Of a DNA stretch of 64,000 nucleotides, positions 15,618 through 64,000 are shown one piece after another. Positions within the stretch are counted from its first letter, which is position 1. Each line of letters starts with the position of its first letter. The stretch is from Polytrichum commune (lineage: Eukaryota; Streptophyta; Polytrichopsida; Polytrichales; Polytrichaceae): NCBI GenBank assembly GCA_950295325.1, contig OX485804.1, forward strand, positions 43,524,001 through 43,588,000. Reading direction: 5' to 3'. The position numbers and the translations under genes were made by a program. The notes below the pieces were generated by a model. The model had not been told where the DNA came from. It did not search any database and saw only the letters and a list, made by a program, of their open reading frames with translations.

Positions 15618-16364
15618 AGACCCCTTAACCGGGCAGACGCTAAAGGGACCCCAACGAGCTCTGTCCGGCGTGACAGACGCTGGTGGGGCCCACCACCGCC
15701 TCTGCCCCCGAAACTTTTCGCGTCCCTACCCACGCAGTTCGGGCAACGCTGCCCGACATCTCTTCCCAAATGCTTCTCTTCCTTGATGTCTGCCACTTCA
15801 ATAAAATAACAATTGCCTTTTAGCAAAAAAAATTCAATACCATGGTATTGTCCTTCACTACAATTGTCCTTCAGTAGGATTGAAGGCCGCTTCTCCATAT
15901 AACCCATATTGAATGCACTTCATCTTCAAGGTCCAAAATCCAATATATATGTTCACTTCCAGTGAATAAATAAGCAATTGATTGGGATTTCCTTTTCAAG
16001 GTGAAACCGACAATAAAGCAGGTAATTAACTTGGAAGTCAAAAACATTACAAAAGCCTCATTAACATTGAGGCAATATCTATTGAGACTTACCATTGAAA
16101 GGGACATTGTCATTCTAAAATGAAACTAAAATTAACGTTTCTATTTTTAATATGTTTATTTTATAATAATCTAGTTAATGCCTTCTATTTGCGCAAGTAT
16201 TTATACATATTGTCCTTCGGGACCGATTGTCTTTCATCACTCTTGTCCTTCACTGCGATTGTCCTTCATCGCTATTGTCCTTCACTGCAATTGTCCTTCA
16301 CAGTAGGATTCAAGGCTGCTTCTCCACATAACCCATATTAATTGCACTTCATTTTCAAGGTCCA

Positions 16365-16395
<31 letters not shown>

Positions 16396-18305
16396 GTTCA
16401 CTTCCATTGAATAAATAAGCAATTGATTGGGACTTCCTTTTGCGAAGTTAAACCGTCAATAAAACATGTAATTAAATTGGAAGTCAAAAACATTTCAAAA
16501 GTCTCATTAGCACCAAGGTTGTGTTTATTGTGACTTATTATTGAAAATGATTTTGTCATTCTAAAATGGAACTAAAATTAATGTTTATTTTTTAGTGTGT
16601 TTAATTTAGTTAATAATTTTTACTTTTACACAAGTATTCATACCGTACTATCAATGTGTACGAATACTTTTATGTATCCTAATTAATCATATAATACATA
16701 TTTGAGTTGATTTTAATAACAAGATTTTTCTTCATTATTTTTTTTTCAATTGTTTTAAGCAAGTTTGTCTTTCCGTTAGTTTTATAAGAGTTTGTCTTTC
16801 AATTAGTTTCATTAAAGGTTTGTTCATTAGTTATTTTATTAGAAGTTTGTCCTTTAATTAGTTTCCATTAAATGTTTGTCTTTCAGTTAGTTTTATTGAA
16901 ATGTTGTCATTCAATTAGTTTCATTAAAGGTTTGTCCTTCAATTAGTTTCACTAGAAATTTGTCTTTCAGTTAGTTTTATTAAAGATTTGTTCTTTCTTT
17001 AGGTTCATTATAAGTTTGTTCTTCAGTTAGTTTGATTAGTTCCTTTAGTTAGTTTAATTTATGGGTTGTCCTTCATTTAGTTTCATTAAAGGTTTTTCTT
17101 TTAATTAGTTTCATTGGAATTTTGTCCTTCATTTAGTTTCATTGAAACTTTGTCCTTTAGTTAGTTTTATTAAGCTTTGTCTTTCACTTAAGTTTATTAT
17201 AAATTAGTTTCTTAAATTAGTTTCATTAACCTTTGTCCTTCAATTAGTTTCATTATGCTTTGTCTTTCACTTAGTTTTATTATAAATTTGTTTTTTGAAT
17301 TAGTCTCATTAAGCTTTATCCTTTAGTTAGTTTCATTATAAGTTTATTTTCTTAAATTATTTTCATTAAAGTTTTATCCTTTAATTAATTTTATTTAAAA
17401 AAATTCTTCATTTAGTTTTATTAACAATATGTCATTCATTTAGTTTCAGCTTAAGTAGGATTAACTTGACGGTTTAACTTCGCAAAAGGAAGTCCCAATC
17501 AATTGCTTATTTATTCAATGGAAGTGAACATATATATATATATATATATATTCAATTTTGGACCTTGAAAATGAAGTGCAATTAATATGGGTTATGTGGA
17601 GAAGCAGCCTTGAATCCTACTGTGAAGGACAATTGCAGTGAAGGACAATAGCGATGAAGGACAATCGCAGTGAAGGACAAGAGTGATGAAAGACAATCGG
17701 TCCCGAAGGACAATATGTATAAATACTTGCGCAAATAGAAGGCATTAACTAGATTATTATAAAATAAACATATTAAAAATAGAAACGTTAATTTTAGTTT
17801 CATTTTAGAATGACAATGTCCCTTTCAATGGTAAGTCTCAATAGATATTGCCTCAATGTTAATGAGGCTTTTGTAATGTTTTTGACTTCCAAGTTAATTA
17901 CCTGCTTTATTGTCGGTTTCACCTTGAAAAGGAAATCCCAATCAATTGCTTATTTATTCACTGGAAGTGAACATATATATTGGATTTTGGACCTTGAAGA
18001 TGAAGTGCATTCAATATGGGTTATATGGAGAAGCGGCCTTCAATCCTACTGAAGGACAATTGTAGTGAAGGACAATACCATGGTATTGAATTTTTTTTGC
18101 TAAAAGGCAATTGTTATTTTATTGAAGTGGCAGACATCAAGGAAGAGAAGCATTTGGGAAGAGATGTCGGGCAGCGTTGCCCGAACTGCGTGGGTAGGGA
18201 CGCGAAAAGTTTCGGGGGCAGAGGCGGTGGTGGGCCCCACCAGCGTCTGTCACGCCGGACAGAGCTCGTTGGGGTCCCTTTAGCGTCTGCCCGGTTAAGG
18301 GGTCT
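15618..18305. mobile_element. Foldback element FB2 with near-identical 840-bp arms
   Basis: Arms 15,618-16,459 and 17,464-18,305 are inverted copies. The only difference I found is the length of a TA run (near 16,372-16,395 and 17,530-17,552). The tips read agaccccttaaccgggcaga and its complement. Mirror open frames of 80 and 73 codons are identical between arms. A roughly 280-bp unit (accattgaaaggga...tgcacttcat) occurs twice in the left half, near 15,880-16,140 and 16,330-16,590, and also forms the arms of FB1, so FB1 and FB2 are one family. No clear target duplication flanks FB2, and about 165 bp of R1 present in the left copy is missing here. Such high arm identity means recent formation, gene conversion or an assembly effect. 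Confidence 0.85.
16740..17455 (+). repeat. Degenerate tandem array in FB2 spacer
   Basis: About 25 imperfect units of 25-31 bp with consensus close to gtttgtccttcaattagttt followed by cattaaag. Not coding. Related short gtccttcactgcaatt units appear in the FB2 arms (16,210-16,305), so the array may have grown from arm sequence. Confidence 0.75.
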
Positions 18306-31319: not shown

Positions 31320-34300
31320 AGACAGGGGGGGGGGGACAAGTCTTTTGATTGTTGTCTAGTTTTATTTTGTTTAGGACTAGGTATGTAAGATATTATATCG
31401 TGCTTTGGTGGATGTTCTTCATCATGAGGATTTTAATGTTTGGTTTGGGTATGATGAGTTTATTAAGTTTTAGCATGGAGTGTTCATGTATGGCTCCACA
31501 TACACTGGTTGTGATGGTTATGACGGGGTTTATTTTCCATCCCTTGTTTTGTAGTGTGTTGATTAGTGGATCGTATTTAGTGTGTTTTTGTCCAAGGGTT
31601 TGTTTGGGGAATTTGTCGGGGCAATATGTAAATTCGATGAATTGGAGTGTGTGGGCAAGGGAATGATTTATTGGTATTTAGGTTTGGTTGGGGGCTCCTA
31701 GTATACATTGGATATCCAATCTTAGTTTTGCTATGCATGGCACATTGGCTACGTTCAAGTGCAACTTAGTATCCATTTTGGGATTGTTGGATCAGGTGAT
31801 TTGTTATTATGGGTGCATGCATTACTTAAAGTGCAGAACCAAGTAGATTTATGGGCTTGTAATGTTTGGACAATAAAGAGTAGTGCATTATTGTGTTAAT
31901 TATCGCATGTGGATAAGAGGTATGGCCATCTATCTATGGTGTTGATGGGCATAGTGTGCAATTGGGATTGGGGTGGGTGATGGGCCAAAAGATGTGTTTC
32001 ATGTGGTTGTCCATGTATTGTGTGTACAAGATTTCAAAGTTTGTGTGATTTGGGCATTATATTTATTATTAGACTTCCATAAGTAGTTGGTTAGTTTGTG
32101 GTTGATTTGGTAGTTTGACAATCACTTGTCAATGTATGGGGGTTTGCTTTTGGAGGTGTTGATTTATTTGTTTCAATGTTCTTTGTTGATGAATGTGTGG
32201 AGGTTGCATCGTGTGTGGCAGTCGAGTAGCTAGCTAAACCAGTAAGGGATGGAGGTGGGCAATGCGGATACATGGTGTGGTGGTAGGTTTATCTTTGTGT
32301 GCTTTGTTGTTTGCTAGTGCATTTGCGAGTTCATTTATGGTTATGCCAGTGTGTGCTAGGACTTTATGTATGGAGATTTTGTGTGGGGTCCAGTGCATTT
32401 GATGTATTATTGCTATTATGAGTAGTTTGTTTGGGTGGTTGTGTTGTGAGGATGGGTGTCGGATGTGATTGTTTATTAAGAATATGTTATTTAGGTTGTT
32501 GGTGAATATATATGTGTCTATTTGAGTGGTGTGTGTGGATTTTATGGCTATTAATATCACATTGAGTTCCACACGGAAGATGTTTTGGTGTCCAAATAGC
32601 CTTTCGGCTATTTGGGTATTGTTGTTGGGGTTGTGTACTTGTGACCTTGCAATGTTGCATTCTTTGTGTCCTTTGGAGTTTTTGGTAGGTGGTATGAAGG
32701 AGCCATTTGTGTATATGTATTGTTGTGGATGAAATTTAGGGGGGGGGGATGTAATAGTATTTGTTTGGTAGGGGAAATGTGCAGTGGGTTCAAAGGGGGT
32801 TTATTTTGGGGGTGGTTCTCCATTTTTTAATTTGAGAAATTGATGTTATGTTGTGTGCAGGTAGGTTTAATTTGGTAGGTGTCTACCTTGATATTGCAGG
32901 TTCTTTGTATGATGCGTTGGAGTCTTTGTGTGATTTTTATGTTTTGTATTTGAATGTCGACTTTGAGATTATTTTGATTCTTTTTTGTGTCTTCGGCTCG
33001 AAGTTTTTCACCATTGTGATTGGTTTACACCTTAGATTTTATATCAATTCATTATCCCTCAGTATCATAGCCATCTTTAGTTTAAATTCAACTATAATGA
33101 TGTTATTCTTATGGTTTGAGTTTGGACATCTAGTGATGGCACAATTCAAAAGGTTAAGGTCCATGTGTGATCATTTAGTGAATTTTTGGAGTTTGTGTAT
33201 ATGGGGGTTGAATATGTTGGATGTTGGCTATGATTATTGCGAGGTCATCGGCATATGTAGTGGTAGTGCATGTGGCATGGGATGTGCTATAGTGGTATCC
33301 TAGGCCATCTTTTTCTAGCTATCTCAAGAGCGGTACTAGATATATGATGAATAGGTAGGGTCTTAGGGTTTCTCCTTGTATGGTTCCTCCACTTACTTGT
33401 GTTGGGGGTGTTGTTCCAAAGTGTTTTTTTGGAGAAGGAGGTGGTGGAGTTTGTGTAAATGCTCCCAACTAGCTCTACTTCGTCCTTCGGGAAGCTTAGG
33501 TCTTCCATGAGGGCTAGCAACACAATTTATGCTATTTTGGCTAGTTTTTCTATCCATTGGGTGCAGTTTGTGGGGTCATGGGGAAAGGGGGGTTGTTAGT
33601 ATTGTTTATAGGGCTAGTGTGTAAGGATTGCGGAGTAGGTGGGCGAGGGGGGGGGGGGGGTGAGTACATGTGACACAAATTGATTTACAAATGCTATGGT
33701 GTTTTTAATTTTGATTTTAATTTTTTGCTTTATGGGGAGGAAGTTGCCTTAGTTTTTTGCTTGAGCTGGCAGGGGGGGTTGTGGTCATGCATGTTTGTTC
33801 AATGTAGTGGCTAAGAGAGTTTATGATCTCCTGGAGTTGTTCTTGTGCATTTTCCCATTGTGTGGGGGTAAGTTGTTTGCATTATAGAATGTTTGTGAGG
33901 CTGGATATTTCTAGGCTTTGTCTTTGAGGAACATCGTTTGAAGTTTCTTTATGTTTATTGGGGGGAGATGGGATATGTGATGTGGGGAGTTTTGGTCAGT
34001 GGTTGTTTTCATTTGGTGGTGATGATGCTATTGGGGCTAATTGGAGGTAGACTAGGTAGTGATTAGAGTTTTGGTTGTGGTTGATGAGGGTGTGATTTGA
34101 AAAATTGGTGTAGTAGTTGTGGCCCCTTGGCGTGAGATGTTGTCTTGGTTATATTTGCAGTGGAGTCCTATGGTGTGCATGAATTGGGCCCATTTGTGGT
34201 CTTTTTGGTTTGGTATGGATGTTATGCCATTAGTTGTTTGTCCTTTGAGTGATGTATCTCTGACAAAGTTGTTGATTGTGATGATTTGATGGCACGAGTG

Positions 34301-48946: not shown

Positions 48947-50016
48947 TTAAGCTTGACCACTACAGAACGATAGGTTGAGTCTACAATCACTCATGTTATT
49001 CCTATCACAGGTGATAATCCTATCACTCGTCTTTGGCTCTCAGCTGGAATAAAATTTAATATTTTGTAATTTAGTTGCTTATCTATTTCCATCTCATGTG
49101 TATAGCCTCTTGCTGTTATACAACTTATTGCCAAACCGTCCTCATTGGAAAGTTGCCTCCTTGCTACCGCATGCAATAGTCTGTTATCCTCGTCTCTAGT
49201 AGACAGTTATAACCTCTATCTTGTGCCTATTGTTGCCACAATTGGTTGTAAATGAAATTCCGCCGACTATAGCCAAACTTTCATCTTAATTCCGAAAGAC
49301 AAACTCAAAAACTTCTATTCATACTATAGCCTGAAGTTTTTGTTCTAGACAATGCTTGGGGAGTTTTTTGAGCATAATCTATCAAAACCCTTGTGTTTCC
49401 AAGTCCCACTAGTTACATTTTGTGATCTTTCGGGTATTTCTTTATCAAATTGAGGCATATTCCATAGATTCTTATAATACGATCGGTAGTTATTCTAAAG
49501 CCTTGAATTTCAACCAGTTATTTCTCAAACTCAGCAGGTTCATTTATGACTAGCGGTCAGATTTCCCTGTTCATTGGATCAAATGCTCCAATATTTATAG
49601 ATTTGCTCCTCAAAAGCAATTTGAATAAATTGTACTCATACCCACATACGTCATTTTATTGGTTGATCCGCCTAAGAACTCATGCACGGTGTAATTCCAA
49701 GTAACATTTTGGCCCACTTTTGGTTTGTATAAAAGACCAAATTTGAAGTAGCATGTTTTTCTCAAGGACCTAATAACCTCCATCATATGCTCCAGTAATT
49801 ATCTATAAATGTTTTGTTAATGGTTGTGTATAGAGAATATGTCAGACCTTTGAATCTATTATGAGCATTTTACTTCAATTTAGAGGTTTCTCAGCTCTTA
49901 TGAAAAACATTCATAATGAAAAGACGATAGTAATCTATTTCAAGATAGAAAGCTTTATCATAGTCCATATTTGAACAGTCATTCATGATAATGGGTACAT
50001 GGCTAAATGGGCCTCC
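48947..50016. other. No gene recognised
   Basis: Flank between the Harbinger-like MITE and the CACTA end. The minus strand yields broken peptide stretches around 49,000-49,550 that could be an old retroelement, but no motif is clear enough to name. Confidence 0.35.
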
Positions 50017-50021
50017 CACTA

Positions 50022-50700
50022 CAACAGATTGGGTATTTTGTGACTGAAATTTATGACTGCCTTAAGTCATAAAATCCCAAAATATGACTAACGAGGCTCC
50101 GGATGAGGATGACGCGTGCGGTGACTGGGTCTAGTCATTACCGACGAGTCGCTTCGGACATGAGTCATATGAATATATACGGTTGTGGAGGCGTATAAAA
50201 GGACAGTTTCTACGATCCCCACTGCACGTGGGACATACCTTGACTAGCCTTGGAGTCAGTGCCCTTTTTTGACCTGCCCGGGCAAAAAAAATACCAAACC
50301 GACGTGGAATGTAACTCCATGTGATCATGTTCTCTGCTGACGTGTAATATGACTTCCATGCGTCATAATTTTGCCGACGTGGCAGACCACGTGGAATGTG
50401 ACTGCTAGTTTTTTGACTGCTTGTAGTCATGTTTTTTGGGGCGTTAGTCACATTTTCTGCGGGGATAACATTGTTATATAACGTTCTGTAGTCATATTCT
50501 TAGTAACATGTTTTGCACAATGTGACATGATGGAGTGATATTCGCGTAGATGGAGAGTCACATTGCGTAGTTCTTTGTGCGTTGTGATAACTGTATTGAG
50601 TTAGATTCGTATTACTTATAATTATGATTGTCAGTCACATTTCGTGCCACATCCCAAGCAATGACGACATATTCAAGTCATGCGCTACATGACTGGGCCA
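50022..50700. repeat. CACTA subterminal repeat zone
   Basis: Dense copies of gtgactg, atgactg, agtcata and gagtcatatg in both orientations directly inside the terminus. In CACTA elements such zones are the binding sites for the TNPA-type protein; that role here is inferred from position. A TATA-like gtataaaagg lies at 50,190-50,201 with no gene directly downstream. Confidence 0.65.
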
Positions 50701-50835
50701 AGTAAGAAATTGAGCACACAAATTGAATACATAAATTTCAATAACTTGAACGACTTTATGTAGTCCATGTCTCCAAGCATATCCAAATGTGTTCATCTTT
50801 CCTACATGACCCCTAAATGCGTAAACTACCGAAAT

Positions 50836-53800
50836 CTAAGTAGCTTGTTGAGGTTCCAGCGGGATAGCCTTCAGTGCTTCCACTGGCCACTTGGTGATGG
50901 ACTTCAGTGCATCGCCCAAACGCAACATCGGAGGATCGTCGTCGTTGTTGCCCTCGTACACCAATACGGACTCTGCTCCCGACTCGATCGAGGACACGCT
51001 AACTGATACGTTGCCCTCCTCAATGAGGCGCCCGTGGAGTGAGCCTCCTGCAAGGCTCACGATGATGCCTTGCGCCACTACGTTCGCCTTGGCCTTGTTC
51101 TCCTCGTCCAGGTCAAACAATGCGACATTGGACCCCGTGGCCAACGGCAAGGGTGCGTCCTCCACCATCGCATTAGCCGTCTCCGACAATACGGCGGTGA
51201 CCTCTTCTGCTTGTGTCTGCAGCAGAAAAAATAATTATCAACAATCAAAACAATCCGCGTGGAGTTACTGGAGCTTCAATACTCAATATATGACCTCACA
51301 CTAGGCCATGATTGCATAATATGATAGGATATACTCATATACCGTACCGCAGTCATCAGATATGACAACAATGAGTAATATAATTGCGACCTATAATTGA
51401 ACATAGTCATATGACTGGACATAGTCATATAACCCATGACTAGCCATATTCATGTGACTGAACATAGTCATATTGCCTATGACTGACCATAGTCATATGA
51501 CTGGACATATTCATATTGCCTATGACTGACCATAGTCATATGACTGGACATAGTCATATTAGAATGACCACAAAAAGTAACACATTCGCCTAAGGTCCTC
51601 ATATTGCTTCGTGGAGTGACATACCTATGCGGACATGTGTTATCAGCATTTTCCTTATTTGCGATTGGAGTTAGAACCAAATAGAAACAAAAAATATCCA
51701 AGAGCAGCTTACTTGTGTCGATGAACCTACCAGGTTCGCAGGTACCGACGCTAGATGGACCTCCTTAGTCAGATACGCCAAGCAATATTCAATGTCGGAT
51801 TGCTTGCAGGCCAATCCTTCGAATGGCCCGCAAATTCTGCCCAGGAAGTCATCGTTGGGGTTTAGGGGATCCCAGCGCGGAAAGTTTAGGACATTTGAGG
51901 GGGGGGGGAACGCGCCGTCGCCGTTGTATCCCAATCGATTTGGAGACACCGTGTTGAGCCGTGCGTGGGGTCCGGAATCATATCAAATAGATTGCGGAGG
52001 TCTCTTATTGGGTTCTGGAGGGGGTAAGTCCTCCCCCACAGAAAGCTCCATTGAGCTGTCGTTCCCGATGCAAGAAATGCGCCTACAACCTCTAGTACGT
52101 TCTGCTCTACGGGGGACCATATCCCGACATCAAAATTAGAGAACAACATCGACAAAAACTTGTCGCAGTCGGTCCTTTTTTTATTTTTACATTCAGGTCC
52201 TTTGCGTGGTGGATGACTAGATCCGGGCCCCACTCTCTCCTATCGTGCAGAGGTCTGATATCGCAAAGAAGTCCTACAACATTCAACACTATAATTTTCC
52301 TACGCCCGGAGTCCGACACTCTTACCGAGGGGACCTTCGGGGGTAACAGCTGAATCTTCGGAGCATTGCCAGCCTTCTTCTTCTTCTTCTGTGGACTGCC
52401 TCCTTTATGTGCCCGTTTTGCCGGCCTCTTCGTCGCAGGCGCCTCATGGTCCTCGTCCTCCTGCAAGTCCACGGGTTGATCTTCACTCGCTCCAACCGTC
52501 ATAACCTGGGAGGCCACGACCCAATAACACTCTAGCGTTAGAGTATGACTCGGCCCTGTCATACACGACTGCTTGTGATAACCTCATGTCATGTTATATG
52601 ACTGCCACTTGTCATGTTTATGACTGCATTGAGTCATATACTATGACCGCCTATAGGCGTATAACATGACTGCCTAGAGTCATGTGATATGACTGCCTTC
52701 AGTCATATCATGTGACATAATCATATGACTGTCCAATGTTGAGGCCACATCAAAGACACAAAGCTTACACGTAAGTATAACTATCGGACAAGTATAATGT
52801 GCATATGACATGAATGCCAACCTCTTTCTGTCGAGCCATTGCACGCCGGGTAGGCCGTGCATCGTGTTCCGCCAATAGCTTCTCCGCTTCGCCCTTCCTC
52901 TTCTTGGCTATGGGTTTCTTCTTTTCAATGATGGGTTGGCAACCCATATCTGCTAGGGTGTTACGCAGGGGCTCCGATGCCGCGGTCGACCCAGTATGCC
53001 CGGATTCCGCCGACCTCCCAGTTGCCTGCATGTTCTAATGATCCACATGAGGCGTGTATTAGTGAACGATCCTAATGCAAGACATACAACATTGCTGAAG
53101 CAAAGGTGTTCCATACATGTATTCGACTGGAGTACTAGAGGGTATACAGACGCAACCTTTTCGGCGGTTACTTGGATCACGTCGACTCCCGCTTCCGCCG
53201 TGGCTGGCGGTTCCATGTCCGTGGCCGTCGTTCGCTTCTGCACCTCCAGCAGAAGCTGCTTCATCATAGCCTTCACATCTTCCATCTCCCCCTTCATGCT
53301 ATCCTGGAAGTCGTGCAGCTCTGTCCGCGTAACAAAGAGGGCTCTATCTCCCGCTCTTGCATTTGGGAGTGGCCCTCTGGATGACGATGACCGGCCCCGT
53401 TCTGATTTCCCGGGTGTCGCTAGCTCGGTTTCCACCTCCAGCTGCGTGGGGGGCCGCTCTAAATCTGCGGCCTGTGAAAGGAGCAACTGTGGATCCATGA
53501 AAAATACGTAAACATACTAAATATGACTATGGAAAGTCATATTACTTAGAATATGACTAGCTGAAGTCATATTACTCAACGTATGGCTAAGTGAAGTCAT
53601 ATGACTCACAATATGACTAGGTGAAGTCATATTACTCAACAAATGACTAGGTGAAGTCATATGACTCACAATATGACTAGGTGAAGTCATATGTCTCTAA
53701 ATATGACTATGTGAAGTCATATTCAGGCAGCGTGTGACTATCTATGGTCATACGACTTCCGGTGTGACTATGTAAAGTGATATCATTCATTATATGACTG

Positions 53801-56501
53801 AATTATATGACTGCAGGTTGTCACATATTTATGTTTGAATGACTTGCACACAAAATCACTTACCAGTCTAGAGCGCACTTCCCCTTCGGACCTTCCAGAA
53901 TACGACAAGGTCTGCACGGTCTGCCGTGCGGCTTTCATGCGCGTGGCTTCCGCGATTTTGTCCGTCCGGGCAATTAACCTCTTGAAGTTGTCGACGTGCG
54001 CCTTCTTCACATACGGTGGGAGCGGGCCACAACTCTCTATGAGTTTCTTCATGTTCGACCTGCGAGTGCGCATCTGCTGCCGCAAAATCTGGAAAAAAAT
54101 AGCTTCAGGCACGTCTCCGAGTCCACCACGGTACTCGAACTGTGCGGCCATCTTGTCTTTAATTGCCAACAACAAGGGCCGTGGGTGTGCCCTGAAGTTG
54201 TCGACGCTCCAGTCGAGGTCGCGAGAATACCCGCGTAGTCGCGTCAGCCAGTTAGGCCGTGTATCCCTGTCGGGCACCCGGCCTCGTCGACCTCGACCCA
54301 CAAACGCTGACCACCACTGGAACTGTGCAGCTCGTCACTCTTCTTCAAGGACCGCCTAAGGTTCTTCAACTTCGACTGTCGAAGCCGCGCGCTTCCGTCG
54401 CCGCCTTCAACCTCTGCCGTCCGGCCAAGGCAACGCACCTTCTCCCGAAGTTCCGTCGGATCGGCTCCTTTTTGAGCCATACGCTGCAAAATGCTTACTT
54501 CCCGGAGCTCCAGCTCGTCAAGGAGCTCGTTATGATGCCCTACGCCTATGTCTGCCTCCTCGCTGTCCGCCGATGCTTCGTCGGCGTCCATCTCACAAGC
54601 CCGGAGAGTATCTTGCATGTCTTGGGACAGCAGGATATCCTCCTCCTCGACCGCCTTGCCCTTCTTTCCGCTAGATTGCAACGGCCATGACCTGGGTTCA
54701 TTTGCATTACCCTACACACCCAGTCGTACAGTATGCTATATGAAACCGTGGAGTCACCCTACATGACTGTAGTAAGTTACATGATTGCATCGAGTCACAC
54801 TACATGGCCGAGTGGAAGGATATTATTGTATAATATGACTGGACAAAGTCATATGACTACCTATAGTCATATTACATGACTGCACTAAGTATCATGTTCG
54901 GGGTCAGATTATGACCTCCTGGAGTGATATGCATATACGGACATATGTTATCAACATTTTTTCTATATGTGTTTGGAATGAGACCCAAGTAACGCGAACG
55001 ACTAAATGCGTTTCCAAGTGCAAGAAACTACGGAGATTTATGTTTTTACCTTCCGCCTCCTTGGTCTGGGCCGCTCGTCCTCGGAAGTCTCCTCTTCGTC
55101 CTCTTCGTCCTCATCATCATCGAGGTCCGTTTCAGGAAGTTGTTTTTTTCCTTTCGCTCTAGTGGTCACACCCCAGCCACCACCCTGCTCTACAGATGGG
55201 CCCGGCTCTCCCACAGGCATGCCACGGCTACTCTCAAAAACACGCGCAACCTCATTCGAAGTCATTTCCAAAACCGGCAATGTAATTGCCGGGAAACTAG
55301 CAATTGTGCGAAAAACTTCCACTTGCATGCCATCAGGCATATTAGCTATTTTTGTTATCAAATTGACAAGTACATTGTTCATTTCGGCATTTTTGGTGGA
55401 AGTCGCGGGAACCACACTGTTCAGTACGAGCGTGAGTTATTAGACGGACATTACATCCCACAAAAATTGTAAGGTAAACAACTGCCAATGCTGAAACATG
55501 ACTCAAATGAGTCATGTGGTCTCCACATTTTTTTGACTGGGAGGAGTCATAATCATGAAATTGTTCACAACATGGATTGAGGATGGTTGAAAATAAAAAT
55601 TGAAATTGAATGTTATGAATCTATTGCAGAGTTGACAACACATACACATTGTCAACACATACACAACACATACACCACACATACACCACACATACATGTT
55701 GTCAACACATACACAACACATACACGTACACATACACATTGTCAACACATAAAATTGAGTTTGAACCTTTGTGAATTCATCTTACGAAAGGAATATGTAA
55801 CAAACACATACACGTGCTCTAGCTAGTAATAATTGAGTTCCAATGATTCAAACTTTCATTATCATCACGGGCACCAACCAATCATGCATGTGGGCAGCTT
55901 AGTTAGCCCTCACTACATTGTTACTCAATATGACACCCGAAATATTTAGCCTATGCATTATGGTTTCAATTCCCTTTCAAATTTGGTAACTCTGGACTGT
56001 TGGGTAGTATGGAATTATTCATTCATTATGTGATGTCAAACAAAAACATTGTTCATACACATGATCATAAATGCACGATCATAGACAACCAATAGAAGCC
56101 ACATATGATGCACAACAACATGGATGTTCGAAGAAGTTACAATATGTTTAGGACTGGGAAGACTCACACTCACAAAAATGTGACTGGACTGTGTCATACA
56201 GACCTTAAAGTATGACTACAGGGAGTCATAATACTATGAACTATGACTGCAAACAATCGTGTCTTCAGCAAGTTGTATGCAATTTATGACTACAAAGATT
56301 CATAAAAGTTTCAAACTTCATAAGCAAAGCTAGCGGTAGCAGGTCCGTTGTATTAGGGTTTGGGGTTACATACCCGGGGTCCTCAGGCCTCTTGAAATGA
56401 GAGGTCCCAATTGGTGTCAGACCGAGTTCCCTCAGCTTCTGGTTGTTGGCCTCGATGTTTTTCTTCCGTATCCTCTCATACTCCGGAATTTCTTCCTCCA
56501 T
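50836..56501 (-). CDS. CACTA accessory protein, TNPA-like role, multi-exon
   Basis: Minus-strand gene with exons read by eye: 56501-56374, 55416-55050, 54711-54439, 54322-53864, 53471-53157, 53034-52822, 52505-52326, an unresolved exon ending at 51713, and 51216-50836 (stop TAG at 50838-50836). Introns are GT-AG with agreeing phases except at the 52.3/52.1-kb junction. In order it shows YERIRKKNIEANNQKLREL at the N-terminus (a block common in plant transposon proteins), an acidic run (DLDDDEDEEDEEETSEDE) followed by basic RPRPRRRK, a region with AIKDKMAAQFEY and KAARQTVQTLSYSGRSEGEVR weakly recalling the Transposase_24 family, a coiled-coil-like segment (FQDSMKGEMEDVKAMMKQLL), and basic NLS-like runs (EKKKPIAKKRK; SPQKKKKKAG). 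I infer a DNA-binding regulator or helper. A TGA at 51,985-51,983 falls inside the eighth exon's best frame (PPQSI-stop-YDSG, probably from TGG), so this copy may be defective. Confidence 0.6.
51398..51560. repeat. ATGACT/AGTCAT array in the last intron of the accessory gene
   Basis: Successive units of the type tatgactggacatagtcata, each a short imperfect palindrome. They lie within the inferred intron 51,217-51,712. Confidence 0.8.
52560..52735. repeat. ATGACT/AGTCAT array in the 52.5-52.8 kb intron
   Basis: Several hairpin-like units such as atgactgcctagagtcat and atgactgccttcagtcat, inside the inferred intron 52,506-52,821 of the accessory gene. Confidence 0.8.
53521..53730. repeat. 30-bp tandem array, 7 units
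   Basis: Units start at 53,521, 53,551, 53,581, 53,611, 53,641, 53,671 and 53,701, exactly 30 bp apart. The common core is atatgactaggtgaagtcat, then a variable tail like attactcaac or atgactcaca. Each core can fold (atgact pairs with agtcat). The array lies in the inferred intron 53,472-53,863 of the accessory gene. Confidence 0.95.
54740..54905. repeat. ATGACT/AGTCAT repeats in the 54.7-55.0 kb intron
   Basis: Diverged units including atatgactggacaaagtcat and atgactacctatagtcat, within the inferred intron 54,712-55,049. Confidence 0.7.
55637..55750 (+). repeat. ACACATACAC minisatellite
   Basis: Repeated acacatacac words separated by attgtcaa or gttgtcaa, inside the inferred first intron (55,417-56,373) of the accessory gene. 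The Cys/Val-rich open frames across it are artefacts. Confidence 0.85.
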
Positions 56502-57080
56502 GATTCTGCAAAACCATAATCCACATTAGTGTTCACTAGAATACAAACAGGTTGTATACATTTTTTATGTTTGTTTTGTATTCCCTACCAGTCCTCATCG
56601 ATGTTTTGTGGATGCTACAGGTTAGCGGATAAGGGATTGAACAACCAGCTCCTACTCAACAAATGCCAAGGGAGTTGCGAATATAGGTGAGGTCAACTTT
56701 CTCCACAGGTATTCGATTGTGTGTGCGGGGTTTTAGCATGATATTTAGGTGTTTGACTAAGATAAGTGACCGGATTAGAATAACTTTCATTCGTGACATG
56801 TAGAATAATACATAGAGACCCGATTTTGTGTCCGAAATAGGGTTCATCATTTTTCAATTTAGATGTCGTCTTTCAAAGCACAAGTTTTGAAGTTTTTGAA
56901 GTATTATGAAATATTTAAACTAAAATTACTCTCCTTGGAGATGGGAGAGTGCACAACCTTGGAGGGTGAGTGGAAGTGGTGGAGAGAGGGAAAACCCTGA
57001 AAAGTTTAGGAGAGAGGTCTGCCTCTGAAAACCCTGCTGCCACGTTACCTCCCGAAATAAATTCAAATGTGGTGCCGAGG

Positions 57081-57838: not shown

Positions 57839-59277
57839 GTAAATTATAAAAATAGACCTCTTTAAAATAGATCAGCAACTTTGATTTGCACGTAAATAGT
57901 GAAATTTTACATTTTTTTATAGTAACAATTATTGGGCTATGAAAAAGTCATCAAACATTGTCGTGGATGGATGAGTTCATCCATCAACCAAATTAAAGCC
58001 CAACATTCTCTTTACTTTTACATCCTCAACATTCTCTTTACTTTTACATTCTCAACATTTGAAATTACTTTTACATTCTCAACATTCGAAATACTTTTAC
58101 CAAAAAAATATATATGGGCTTCATGACACTTACTTATAACCGGGGTATACGACTCCCCTGGAATCGATTACGATATATTTACGGTATATATCATAGGTCC
58201 ACACTTATCCATGTGATCTTTTATACCAATATAAGTTTATCTCTATCAAATGAAGAATTGTCCAGTAGGTCAAATATTCATTTTTTGTAAGGGGATTCTA
58301 GCTCTTCTCCCTAATTTACTTTATAAGGCATGAACTTGACGAGGGATTCGTGGTGTCTATGTAAACTCATCCATTATGAAATTGACATCAAATTACACAT
58401 CAAAGTCCCTAAATTAATCTTATGGAGTCTAGTTGGAATAAATCGACCCTCAACCTTAACGGGGACCTTTTTTAAACTAAATCCCCTTCATCCACATTGG
58501 ATCACTTGACATTATACGGACATAATAGTGGTCAATTATTGCTTAATATAATACCTATTCACCCTTTGAGATTGTATTTGGTACCTTCTTAATATTCAAG
58601 TGTTTTGTTAACAAATGAAACCCATCCTTCAGGTCGGTGTTCATTGAGTCTGCTTTGCACTTCTAGGACGAGTTTTCATTTAGGAGCGAAAAGAACTGTT
58701 GATGTTGAAATGGTCCCTTGGTACCACCTTTTCTAAGTATGTAAGGTAGATGGGCTTAAGTGGCTCCCTTCTTTAATCGGACCCCTAGATATGATTGATA
58801 ATTGGTTCGGTGAGGATCATCAAAAAGAAAATATCATAAAGAAATATGTTTAGAAAAGATTGGAATACGTCTTCAAAATTCAAAGAACTACTCTACATTG
58901 AACAATGAACACAATTGGGAGAACCCGCGTATTTAGTTAAGAAATCAACAAATGTTATGCATTTCTCATGACTATAATTAAATCAAATGAAAGTAATGCT
59001 TGGTGTTTGCTCGGCTTTGAAAATAGGAAACTTTAGCTCACTATGTGTGAGCTCCCATATATAATTGTGTACACTCAATGACCAAGAAGATACATATTGT
59101 GCACAATGGTCATATCATACAATCATATGCCACGATTTATCAAACACGTTCATGAATGTTGTAAAAGAAGATTCATACAAAGTGGATTGGGTTCATGATG
59201 TTTCATAATATTCCTTCAAGTTGCTTCACGGCTTCGGTTAGAATATTTTCACGCCTTCTAGTCATGGGCTGATGACT

Positions 59278-59510
59278 GTCATGTCTTATATGACTGACAT
59301 GTGTTATATGACCCCCGTGTGTTCTATGATAACCAGTCATATGACTACCCTGTGTCATATGACTGTCATGTCTTATATGACTGACATGTGTTATATGACC
59401 CCCGTGTGTTCTATGACAGCCAGTCATATGACTACCCTGTGTCATATGACTGTCATGTCTTATATGACTCCCCTGTGTTATATGACTGCCTCGATATATT
59501 TGACTTCCCT
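59278..59510 (+). repeat. 87-bp higher-order array before the SET unit
   Basis: An approximately 18-bp unit (atgactgacatgtgttat and variants) is organised in an 87-bp block: the copy starting at 59,278 is repeated at 59,365 and a third begins at 59,452 and diverges. It ends about 115 bp before the first coding exon of the SET/transposase unit, where a promoter or leader would be. Confidence 0.9.
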
Positions 59511-59623: not shown

Positions 59624-60522
59624 ATGGCAGGAGGGGAGGTCGAAAGCTTGAAGCATCTACAGTTATGGCAAGAAGAAGAGGTCCAAGCAGATGCAATGCG
59701 GCTATCCAAGTACCCATGCCCCTGCATGGAGTGTGCAGGAGGGAAAGTCCTCGATCGAGCCACAATTCGAAAGCATCTTCGCAGCAAAAAAAGGGACCCC
59801 GTGTTTACAGCCTCTATCTTGGTGAGTCATTCCATGAAACGACTTGTGAATGAGCGTCAGCGGGTGGTCCTGCTTTGAGCGAGTTTTCATCTTTGTGTAC
59901 ATGAATTTTGTAGGCCCGATGGAGACCCATTGTAAAAGCTGCTTGCAAGACATCCCTGAGAAAGTTTCTAGGAGGACACGAAATGCCTTCACAGTCAATG
60001 CCAAACACTGCGTCTGCAAGAGTACGAGCCTTGCAGTCATGGGGGTCAAACGTGTATGACGGACAGTGGTGTGACGGGCCCATCCCAAAACTTATAAAGT
60101 TTTCATACTGGAATAGAGAATGGGAAGTAAGGGTGTCCAACTTCCCATTCATGGGCTGGGGTCTCTTTGCACTTCAACCCGCCAAAGAGGGAGAGGAACT
60201 GCTTCCATTCGTAGGACCACAATACACCAAGGGAGAATACAGTGCCTTGAAGAAGGCACATCCTCGAGTGAAGTCATATGCGATGCAAGTTGAGCCGGAC
60301 TTGTACATCGATGGAGATGTAATGAAAGGGAATGTCGCAGGCTTCATAAATAGTTCCATAGGACGCAAAGAAATAGGAAATGTGGTGTGGGAATTTCGCA
60401 TGTTGCCAAAACCCTGGAACAAACAGGAATGGGGGTATGTAATCACCATGGCCACAAAGGACATTATGGTCGGAGAAGAGTTGTATGCACATTACTCTTT
60501 GAACCCGCACACCACATTGTAG
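59624..60522 (+). CDS. SET-domain protein with transposase-associated N-terminus, in CACTA
   Basis: Two exons: 59,624-59,821 (66 codons, donor GTGAGT) and 59,914-60,522 (acceptor ttttgtag, stop TAG). Both junction sides are phase 0, giving 268 residues. Residues 28-50 carry YPCPCMECAGGKVLDRATIRKH, a CxCxxC...H motif like the transposase-associated domain at the start of plant TNP2 proteins. Residues about 125-262 form a SET domain: GWGLFAL, GEELLPFVGPQYT, YAMQVEPDLYIDG, GNVAGFINSS with a later Asn, ATKDIMVGEELYAHYS. SET domains methylate lysine, usually on histones, using S-adenosylmethionine. The usual FINHS histidine is Ser here, so activity is not assured; the GEEL and final Tyr blocks are kept. 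It lies just upstream of the transposase in the same direction. A captured host gene or a regular CACTA accessory gene are both possible. Confidence 0.75.
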
Positions 60523-61052: not shown

Positions 61053-64000
61053 GACGAGTACAGCCCGATTGACTTGTTCTCCCATGCACCCCGGATTGGG
61101 CAAAGAAGCCAGACATACCCTAACACAAACGATGGACAAGAAGGAGAAGTTGAGGTTCTACGTATGGTGGCAGAGTGCTTTGGCAAGTACGATGACCTCA
61201 AATTTGATGGACATGAAACCGAAGCCACCATACATGAGGGACTCGGGGATGCATTGGTTGAAGACGATGAAAGGGAGGATGGTTTCACAACGAAGGACAG
61301 TGAAGGTAGCGAGGGGGAAATGGAAGAAACGAATGACCCCATGGAAACAAGAGGGAGTACGATGAACAGTGAGGACCCCACTGGGGTAGACCACCAGAAG
61401 CTCTTATGCGAAGCTGGAACTCCACTGTATGAGGGAAGCCCCTCGAACCGTCTCACATCGACACTCTTGATACTATTGTGTTGCACCACATTCGCTGTAC
61501 CAAACAACTTTGTGGATGAGTTGTTGAAGTTGTTGAAGGAGACAATTTTACCCAAGGACAACACAATACCGAAATCATTTAACGAGGCGAAAGGCTTGTT
61601 GATGAAGTTGGGGTTGTCCTACAACTCAATACATGCGTGTAGAGATGGATGTTGTTTGTTTCGGAAAGAATTGGAGAATGCAACGGAGTGCCCAACATGC
61701 CACAAATCGCGCTTTGTAGAGAACTCCGATACAATTCCAGTCAAAGTTTTGAGACATTTTCCCTTAATTCCTCGTTTGCGAAGGATGTACAGCTGCACAC
61801 GGATCGCGGGCCTAATGAAGTGGCATGTAGGTGGGAAAAGTAAGGACAAGGTGATGAGGTCCGTGGTGGACTCGAAGGCTTGGGACCACGTAAATAATAG
61901 GTGGCCATGGTTTGCGGAAGATGAACGGAACGTTAGGCTTGGCCTTGCACTGGATGGCGTAAATCCATTTAGGAACCAAAGTCTCAGCCACTCTACTTGG
62001 CCCGTGGTCATGCTAAACTACAATCTCCCCCCTTGGTTAGTGACCAAAAACTTCTTCATGATGCTTGCGCTAATCATACCAGGAAAAGAGAGTGTAAGGG
62101 ACAGGAACGTGGATGTGTACATGGCACCGTTGATTGAGGAGCTCCAAGAGCTTTGGAAAGGGATCGATTGCTTGGACGGATCGCAAGGAAACCCCAAAGA
62201 GAAAACATTTAAGCTACATGGCATGCTTTTGTGGACGGTGAATGACTTCCCGGCGTACGGTTTGATTTCGGGGCAAGTAACAAAAGGACATAGGGCTTGC
62301 CCCGTGTGTGGCCCCAACGTGGCAACACGGCGTTCCAAAGCACTGAAAAAAAATGTTTACCTTGGGCATAGACGACAACTGCCAATGACCCACCAATGGA
62401 GACGACAAAGGTCCAATTTTGACGGGCAGCCGGAGATGAGACCACCGCCAAGAAGGATGAGTGGTCGAGAGCAATTGCGATATGCGAATGAGCGAGAAGA
62501 GTGGACGAAAAAACACTACAGAAACCAAACTGGGCAGACGACAGACCCCGTACACGAACATGGAGTGAAGAGGAGGACATGTCTATATGACCTTCCATAC
62601 TGGAAAGTACGTGTTTCTTATTATGAGAATTAAGGGAGTGGACGTAGTCACATGATTGCATATAGTAATATTGTTTATGAGTATTATGTGAGTGGACGTA
62701 GTCATGTACAGTCACATGATTGCACGTAGTGATATTGTGATTCGCTCCGGAGCATTTCTCACTGGGTCGAGTCATTGTGCAGGATCTTCTAATTCGACAC
62801 ACGTTGGATGTTATGCACTGTGAGAAAAATATCGCTGAGAATGTGATGAAAACCATATTTGGAGAGAAGGATACACTTGGAGTTCGTCTGGACATGAAGG
62901 AGGCGGGTATACGCCCGCATCTTTGGCCCGTAGCAGGAACAAAACCCGGTAGCGTGATTCTACCTCGATCATCGTACGTTATGACGAAAGAAGAGCGTGA
63001 AGTCTTTGTGGAGCAAGTTCGTGCACTGCGAACCCCCACTCACTATGTGGGACAGTTGAAGAAGCGCGTAAACGTGGATGGGCAAATTAAAGGCCTGAAA
63101 TCCCACGACTACCATGTCCTCATGCAGAAAGTGTTGGCACTATGTGTGCGCTGCACAATGGAAAAGGAAGTGCGGACATCAATAATAATGTTGAGCCGTG
63201 TATTCAGGAGGGTGTGTGCTAAGTCCATTGATCCTGCAACAATACAGGAGATGAGGTGTGAAGAGGCCATAGCACTATGCATGTTGGAAAAAGAATTCCC
63301 GCCATTATTTTTTGACATCATGAGCCATTTGGTCCTGCATCTCGTGGAGGAAGTGGAAATTTGTGGACCCGTACATACACGTTGGATGTACCCTATTGAG
63401 AGGTACCTGAAGACTCTAAAAGGGTATGTCCGAAACCGTACTCGCCCAGAGGGTTGCATGGCTGAAGGCTACGCCATAGTAGAGGCATTGGGATTCTGTA
63501 CGGAGTATATGCAAGAATATACAGTCACCACTCGAAGAGTGTGGGATGACAAAGAAGACCCATCAATGTATGATGAGATCCTCGAAGGTGGCGGGCGGGC
63601 GCGTCATCTCCCATCCGACCTTCGACAATGGATACATGAGTTCGTGGTGAACAATGCGGCACCACTGGAGGAGTGGAGGAGGTGAGTTCACATTTTAGTG
63701 GAAGAACCTTAAATGCACCACCTTTCTTAGAACAACAGTGCAGACCATACGAACTATAACAAAACACATCTTTTGTGACCAAAAAATATGACTGCAGTCA
63801 ATCATATTTTGGGATTTATGACTGAGTACAATCACAAAATGTAGTCGTAAAATATGCATTTCGTTGTAGTTATCGCAACACAGTACGACTACTGTTGTAT
63901 GCAAATATGACTACCCTTAGTGATTTCAGCAAGTCACGGGTAATGATGTGTTGGGTTGTATCCAAAATGCAGGAAACACGAGGATGACATGTCACGGCGG
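61053..64000 (+). CDS. TNP2-type CACTA transposase, 3' end outside the window
   Basis: Catalyses excision and integration of the element. Exons read by eye: 61,053-62,606, 62,783-63,681 and 63,973 to beyond 64,000, with GT-AG introns and matching phases; exon 59,624-59,821 probably supplies the start. An acidic N-terminal stretch is followed by the Transposase_21 region: DGCCLFRKEL, CPTCHKSRF, the conserved LALDGVNPF, YNLPPWL, DRNVDVYMAPLIEELQELW, LLWTVNDFPAYG and GHRACPVCG. The second exon has the usual TNP2 sequel: RHTLDVMHCEKNIAENV, then the DUF4218-type LKSHDYHVLMQ and WMYPIERYLKTLKGYVRN. No stop or frameshift is visible in these blocks, so the transposase may be functional. Both introns contain the element's ATGACT/AGTCAT repeats. 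The ATG at 60,939 in the same frame is an alternative but less likely start. Confidence 0.88.
62607..62782 (+). repeat. Transposase intron made of subterminal-type repeats
   Basis: The intron gtacgt...ttgtgcag contains two copies of gtggacgtagtcac(atg) and paired cacatgattgca words, variants of the element's repeat motif. Confidence 0.65.
63682..63972 (+). repeat. Transposase intron carrying ATGACT repeats
   Basis: Contains tatgactgcagtcaatcata, tttatgactgagtacaatca and atatgactacccttagtgat. The intron begins gtgagt and ends atgcag, and joins AG to GAAACAC (Arg-Lys-His) in phase. Confidence 0.65.

Follow-up and report, generated by a model that had tools for sequence, protein, structure and literature searches.

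A predicted SET-domain exon between the transposase-associated and TNP2 exons of a CACTA transposon family in Polytrichum commune

The TNPA protein of the En/Spm element binds the subterminal repeats and has a Suppressor function (PMC2613891, in excerpt). In Phytophthora, HarbingerS and MuDR elements carry a SET methyltransferase gene (PMC12730594, in excerpt), and the transposon proto-Helentron-Pi of Phytophthora infestans contains a short open frame for SET (~153 aa; PMC4067079, in excerpt). SET genes have thus been described before in elements of the Harbinger, MuDR and Helitron-like types, while the CACTA case was not found in the literature searched; that search covered open-licence sources with Repbase outside its scope, and an earlier report of a CACTA element with a SET domain is possible.

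Within the window, that is, the whole 64,000-nucleotide stretch of P. commune DNA analysed here, we identified an apparently complete 15,498-bp CACTA (EnSpm) element, with its left end at 50017 and its right end 1,514 bases beyond the window. Its features are as follows, with TA denoting the transposase-associated exon.

50014..50016, no strand: left target-site duplication TCC, whose right-hand counterpart lies beyond the window at 65515-65517
50017..50044, plus strand: left terminal inverted repeat CACTACAACAGATTGGGTATTTTGTGAC, 28 bp, paired with a perfect inverted copy beyond the window at 65487-65514
50134..56525, minus strand: open frames with ATGACT-rich introns between them, a probable divergent accessory gene
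51390-51560, 52588-52716 and 53519-53723: other ATGACT-rich tandem arrays of the element
59272..59490, no strand: ATGACT-rich tandem array, one of several within the element
59624..59821, plus strand: TA exon with a CPCxxC...H motif, ending in phase 0
59822..59913, plus strand: proposed intron 1, GTGAGT...GTAG, predicted from sequence
59914..60522, plus strand: SET exon, 202 codons and a TAG stop
61053..62606, plus strand: TNP2 exon with Transposase_21, acceptor CAG/GAC, in phase 0 with the TA exon
62783..63681, plus strand: TNP2 exon with DUF4218
63973..64000 in the window, continuing to 64849 outside it, plus strand: last TNP2 exon

When the left ends of six other copies were fetched, five of the six started at the same base with differing flanks, and L049 had no match. 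As to possible mobility, near-identical copies were seen at separate loci whose flanking sequences differ. The ATGACT sites are concentrated in the element, which holds 53 of the 63 found in the window. Nine frames of the minus-strand stretch at 50134-56525 were scanned against Pfam and none scored above cut-off, and a relative of the frame at 55041-55436 occurs on the same side, in orientation opposite to TA, in L037, L038 and L043. The minus-strand frame at 50134-50499 also has a 37% relative (E=2e-18) at L031:6639-7046, about 5 kb past the right end of the element, which possibly belongs to another element nearby.

Elsewhere in the window, a second element was observed at 15846-18080. Its long inverted ends are identical over at least 47 bases (CACTACAATTGTCCTTCAG...) and lie ~2.2 kb apart, with tandem arrays of a TTGTCCTTCA-type unit between them, and this inversion may reach past the letters CACTA. 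An open frame on the minus strand at 11637-12056 matches the dimerisation region of hAT transposases (E=3.8e-8), and a 188-residue minus-strand frame at 32237-32800 is, by sight, retroelement RNase H-like. The Rfam scan of the window returned no family at its cut-off.

The transposase was identified as TNP2-type from its Pfam matches (Transposase_21, E=1.9e-73; DUF4218, E=2.2e-36), and its exons as drawn (61053-62606, 62783-63681 and 63973-64849) are open as far as the stop. The first exon is called TA-like by alignment only, with PF13963 (transposase-associated domain) scoring 19.1-22.6 bits in seven TA exons, below the curated cut-off of 27.7. A U-box reading of this exon was considered and set aside as a chance match, because only the window copy exceeded the cut-off (23.1 versus 21.4 bits); four relatives scored 12.5-16.2 bits and no match was listed for L042. 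The sequence-only reading had placed a TA module joined in frame to a SET domain inside a CACTA element, upstream of TNP2 and in its direction, and mapping of the ends and exons bore this out, with two in-frame exons.

The SET identity proposed in that reading was also upheld, since the exon matched Pfam PF00856 at E=1.2e-9 and 39 bits, against a curated cut-off of 22.4, and 21 of 24 family members matched the same profile. A SET fold was found by structure comparison in the predicted structure of the exon product, based on the deeper of two structure models, and this comparison left the SET class tied, with EZH2 and SETD8 fitting as well as MLL or ASH1L. The profile search was topped by H3K4 (COMPASS) and ASH1L enzymes, not SUVH or EZH, at low, non-decisive scores. 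The GxG, NH and Tyr residues of SET domains have roles in cofactor binding and catalysis. In a 62-row alignment of the family, the GWG residues were near-constant (52, 56 and 56 of 57), Asn146 was present in 56/60 and Tyr194 in 48/49, while the position of the canonical NHS histidine was occupied by serine in 54 and asparagine in 5 of 60; the profile alignment placed the Asn on the N of the NH motif and the Tyr region on TYDY. The exon is predicted to encode a SET-domain protein with putative lysine methyltransferase activity. As a separate observation, the N-terminal part of a subfamily B SET exon (L032:3191-3784, minus strand) gave a sub-threshold Ntox17 match (20 versus 25 bits), which is probably chance.

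The genome from which the window comes (408 Mb in 64 contigs) was then found to hold at least 150 matches to the SET exon (150 of 206 candidates scored), the weakest of which were counted by score alone, and at least 79 matches to TNP2 (77 of 738 candidates scored). Among the SET matches listed, two besides the window copy were identical to it in protein. A SET match lay upstream of TNP2, on the same strand and within 4 kb, in 57 of the 77 TNP2 matches examined, and reciprocally TNP2 lay downstream in 57 of 64 SET places compared (64 of the at least 150). In the 30 fetched loci of the window copy's subfamily, designated A, the TA exon was found upstream in 30/30 (one partial) and TNP2 in 29/30. 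These counts confirmed the prediction that other CACTA copies carry the SET exon. Of the 20 TNP2 matches without SET, 16 clustered into a single group with 58-60% identity and another, C4:48122552, had a SET fragment among the genome SET matches. In L041 and L042, two fetched members of the group of 16, TA was followed directly by TNP2, and a search for a SET remnant between the two exons yielded no convincing match, with hits of E 0.03-7.6 that lay elsewhere or were tiny. A distant CACTA lineage with TA, SET and TNP2 was seen at L039 (C3) and L040 (C5), which are identical across a 326-residue SET frame, with a third copy at 96-97% (C1:31042826-31043897).

By eye, 90 of the 119 PF00856 matches listed for the genome overlap transposon SET places, and the other 29 resemble host or unassigned SETs. 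Counting domains would therefore overstate how many host methyltransferase genes this genome has.

Four subfamilies (A, B, C and D) retain the order TA-SET-TNP2, with SET identity of 57-61% for B, 46-49% for C and down to 36% for D, in which TNP2 segments share 29-41% and the TA exon was located by its CPCxxC motif. A phase-0 GT at the end of TA and a phase-0 SET acceptor were found in all four, the exception being one copy of subfamily C (L044), which has AT where the acceptor AG is expected. The TNP2 acceptor is likewise in phase 0, as read in A, where the homology of six relatives starts at the same residue (DEYSP), and as taken from translation in B, C and the SET-less loci. The SET exon closes with a stop in all four subfamilies. 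A single fused TA-SET-TNP2 protein was set aside on account of this stop, ahead of which visual inspection revealed no shared phase-0 donor. The tree of TNP2 places the two SET-less loci within a well-supported group that also holds SET-labelled rows, where the nearest SET labels (P0053, P0044) rest only on a presumed common source and D is a long, unreliable branch. As the SET-less subfamily nests among SET-bearing ones, this suggests that it arose through loss of SET.

Comparison between subfamilies gave dN of ~0.36-0.5 with synonymous sites near saturation; pN and pS were 0.28-0.35 and 0.74-0.90 for A against B or C, and 0.37 and 0.73 for B against C. Such low nonsynonymous and near-saturated synonymous change indicates that the SET exon is kept under selection, and this between-subfamily comparison constitutes the strong evidence. 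Within subfamilies, a codon model gave SET omega values of 0.506 (A), 0.389 (B) and 0.606 (C), calculated from 18/30, 19/20 and 8/8 copies, respectively, after stop-bearing copies were dropped. Fixing omega at 1, with kappa fixed at its free estimate, was worse by 2dlnL of 10.7 (A), 50.1 (B) and 9.2 (C). In subfamily A, TNP2 gave 0.506 (18/29 copies used) and TA 0.398 (24/30), which indicates that SET is constrained about as firmly as the transposase; the Nei-Gojobori means were 0.15, 0.43 and 0.33 for TA, SET and TNP2, respectively. Changes private to one copy are expected to be mostly neutral decay. In this control, private and shared changes gave 0.47 versus 0.36 in SET and 0.47 for both in TNP2. 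By this control, mutation bias alone may lower within-family omega, and the within-family values are weak ground. In each of the three subfamilies, variable sites fell preferentially at codon position 3.

Outside this genome, 83 proteins matched the SET family profile. One of these from another source, P0201, has TA reading via an in-frame intron into SET; SET and TNP2 proteins seemingly of common source were also found (P0174 and P0185 with P0034; P0168 with P0044), and the one named relative is a protein of the liverwort Riccia sorocarpa (P0204, 32%). No SET relatives were found in phage, viral or prokaryote sources. Seven host-type SET regions (L070-L076), by sight of COMPASS, SUVH and EZH kinds, all scored low against the family profile (-1.8 to 16.5 bits), and no close host donor was found among them. 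The sequence-only reading had offered selection or recent capture as the reason for the open frame; the comparison of pN with pS between subfamilies favours selection, and recent capture is not supported, as the association is older than subfamilies sharing 36-61% SET identity. A recent one-off capture is ruled out by the number of SET matches, the four subfamilies, the 57/77 linkage and the between-subfamily selection, and other members of the family carry the exon as well.

Because the TA donor and both acceptors are in phase 0 wherever read, and SET ends at its own stop, the simplest model from the sequences is one gene with two products, a TA-TNP2 transposase and a TA-SET enzyme with its own stop. 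One transcription unit would be spliced two ways: TA joined to TNP2 would give the transposase, and TA joined to SET would yield a small enzyme that shares its N-terminal module with the transposase. If TA recognises element DNA, the enzyme would be brought to copies of the element, where its likeliest use would be anti-silencing, through a histone mark under which promoter and ends stay accessible. The H3K4 and ASH1L enzymes at the top of the profile search tip the balance slightly towards active marks, but the fold comparison is tied and the host-type SETs all score low. For the whole of this explanation, comprising a conserved SET cassette exon, two-way splicing, a TA-guided enzyme and anti-silencing as the likeliest use, we estimate a probability of about 0.5. 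The statement that a single DNA-recognition exon would serve both TA-TNP2, the cutting enzyme, and TA-SET, a targeted histone methyltransferase that would mark the element's own copies, with selection maintaining the arrangement from before these CACTA lineages split, is advanced tentatively, at somewhat less than even odds.

The rival readings differ mainly in what TA-SET would act on and in whether it exists as a joined product. An unlikely reading, to which we still give the most weight among the rivals, is that TA-SET methylates something other than a histone, be it the transposase, the product of the divergent accessory gene or a factor of the host, and would tune transposition, not chromatin; the common TA exon would take both products to the same DNA and the departure from the canonical NHS motif leaves room for an unusual substrate, but the nearest solved relatives are histone enzymes. 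A little more doubtful is self-restraint, in which TA-SET would put a repressive mark on element copies or competitors and limit transposition. The Suppressor role of TNPA, the protein that binds the subterminal repeats of En/Spm, offers a loose parallel (PMC2613891, in excerpt), and the EZH2 and SETD8 structures match the predicted model equally to those of MLL or ASH1L; against this, the profile search is led by H3K4 and ASH1L enzymes and not by SUVH or EZH, with low scores that are not decisive.

It is less probable again that SET is a separate small gene inside the element, with its own start and promoter and without TA, such that the phase match would be incidental. Several relatives (P0002-P0004, P0009 and P0020) do have a methionine near the start of the SET exon, but SET homology extends upstream of these methionines to the phase-0 acceptor in A, B, C and D, the TA of P0201 adjoins SET, and at the corresponding alignment position the window exon lacks a methionine. 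Capture of host exons by CACTA elements is known (PMC13317346, in excerpt), and SET could on this precedent be a functionless passenger, a host fragment gained by transduplication; this is very improbable and is contradicted by the comparison between subfamilies, given that SET is kept in four subfamilies in fixed order and phase, with low pN and near-saturated pS, and that the seven host-type regions compared include no close donor.

If the two-product, TA-guided reading is true, whether transposons write their own histone marks to escape or enforce silencing becomes directly testable, with the SET-less sister subfamily of this genome serving as an internal control. Like En/Spm of maize and Tgmt* of soybean (PMC2613891, in excerpt), the element has CACTA ends, a 3-bp target duplication, Transposase_21, DUF4218 and repeated subterminal motifs, and more than one product is expected by alternative splicing, here predicted from phase. 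Unlike elements of the TNP2 (TNPD)/TNPA type, it carries a SET exon between TA and TNP2, and its accessory gene is divergent, with no Pfam match above cut-off. The HarbingerS and MuDR elements of Phytophthora, as described in the excerpted source, are likewise DNA transposons with a SET gene, but they differ in transposase superfamily and in their oomycete host; the transposase here is TNP2 (Transposase_21) and not of the Harbinger or MuDR type. Proto-Helentron-Pi (PMC4067079, in excerpt) differs in being a rolling-circle element with a separate intronless SET frame, similar to Clr4 (H3K9 type). In SETMAR/Metnase, SET is likewise joined to a transposase-derived module, but in a single host gene that combines a host SET with a domesticated mariner transposase and is not a mobile family. 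The VANC proteins of Arabidopsis VANDAL elements (PMC10398659, in excerpt) provide a case in which a protein encoded by a transposon acts on the epigenetic state of the element that encodes it; they belong to another protein family, and anti-silencing is shown there, whereas we only infer it here. Set beside these systems, the present family appears to be a naturally occurring example of a transposon that joined its own DNA-recognition module to a chromatin-modifying domain through exon sharing.
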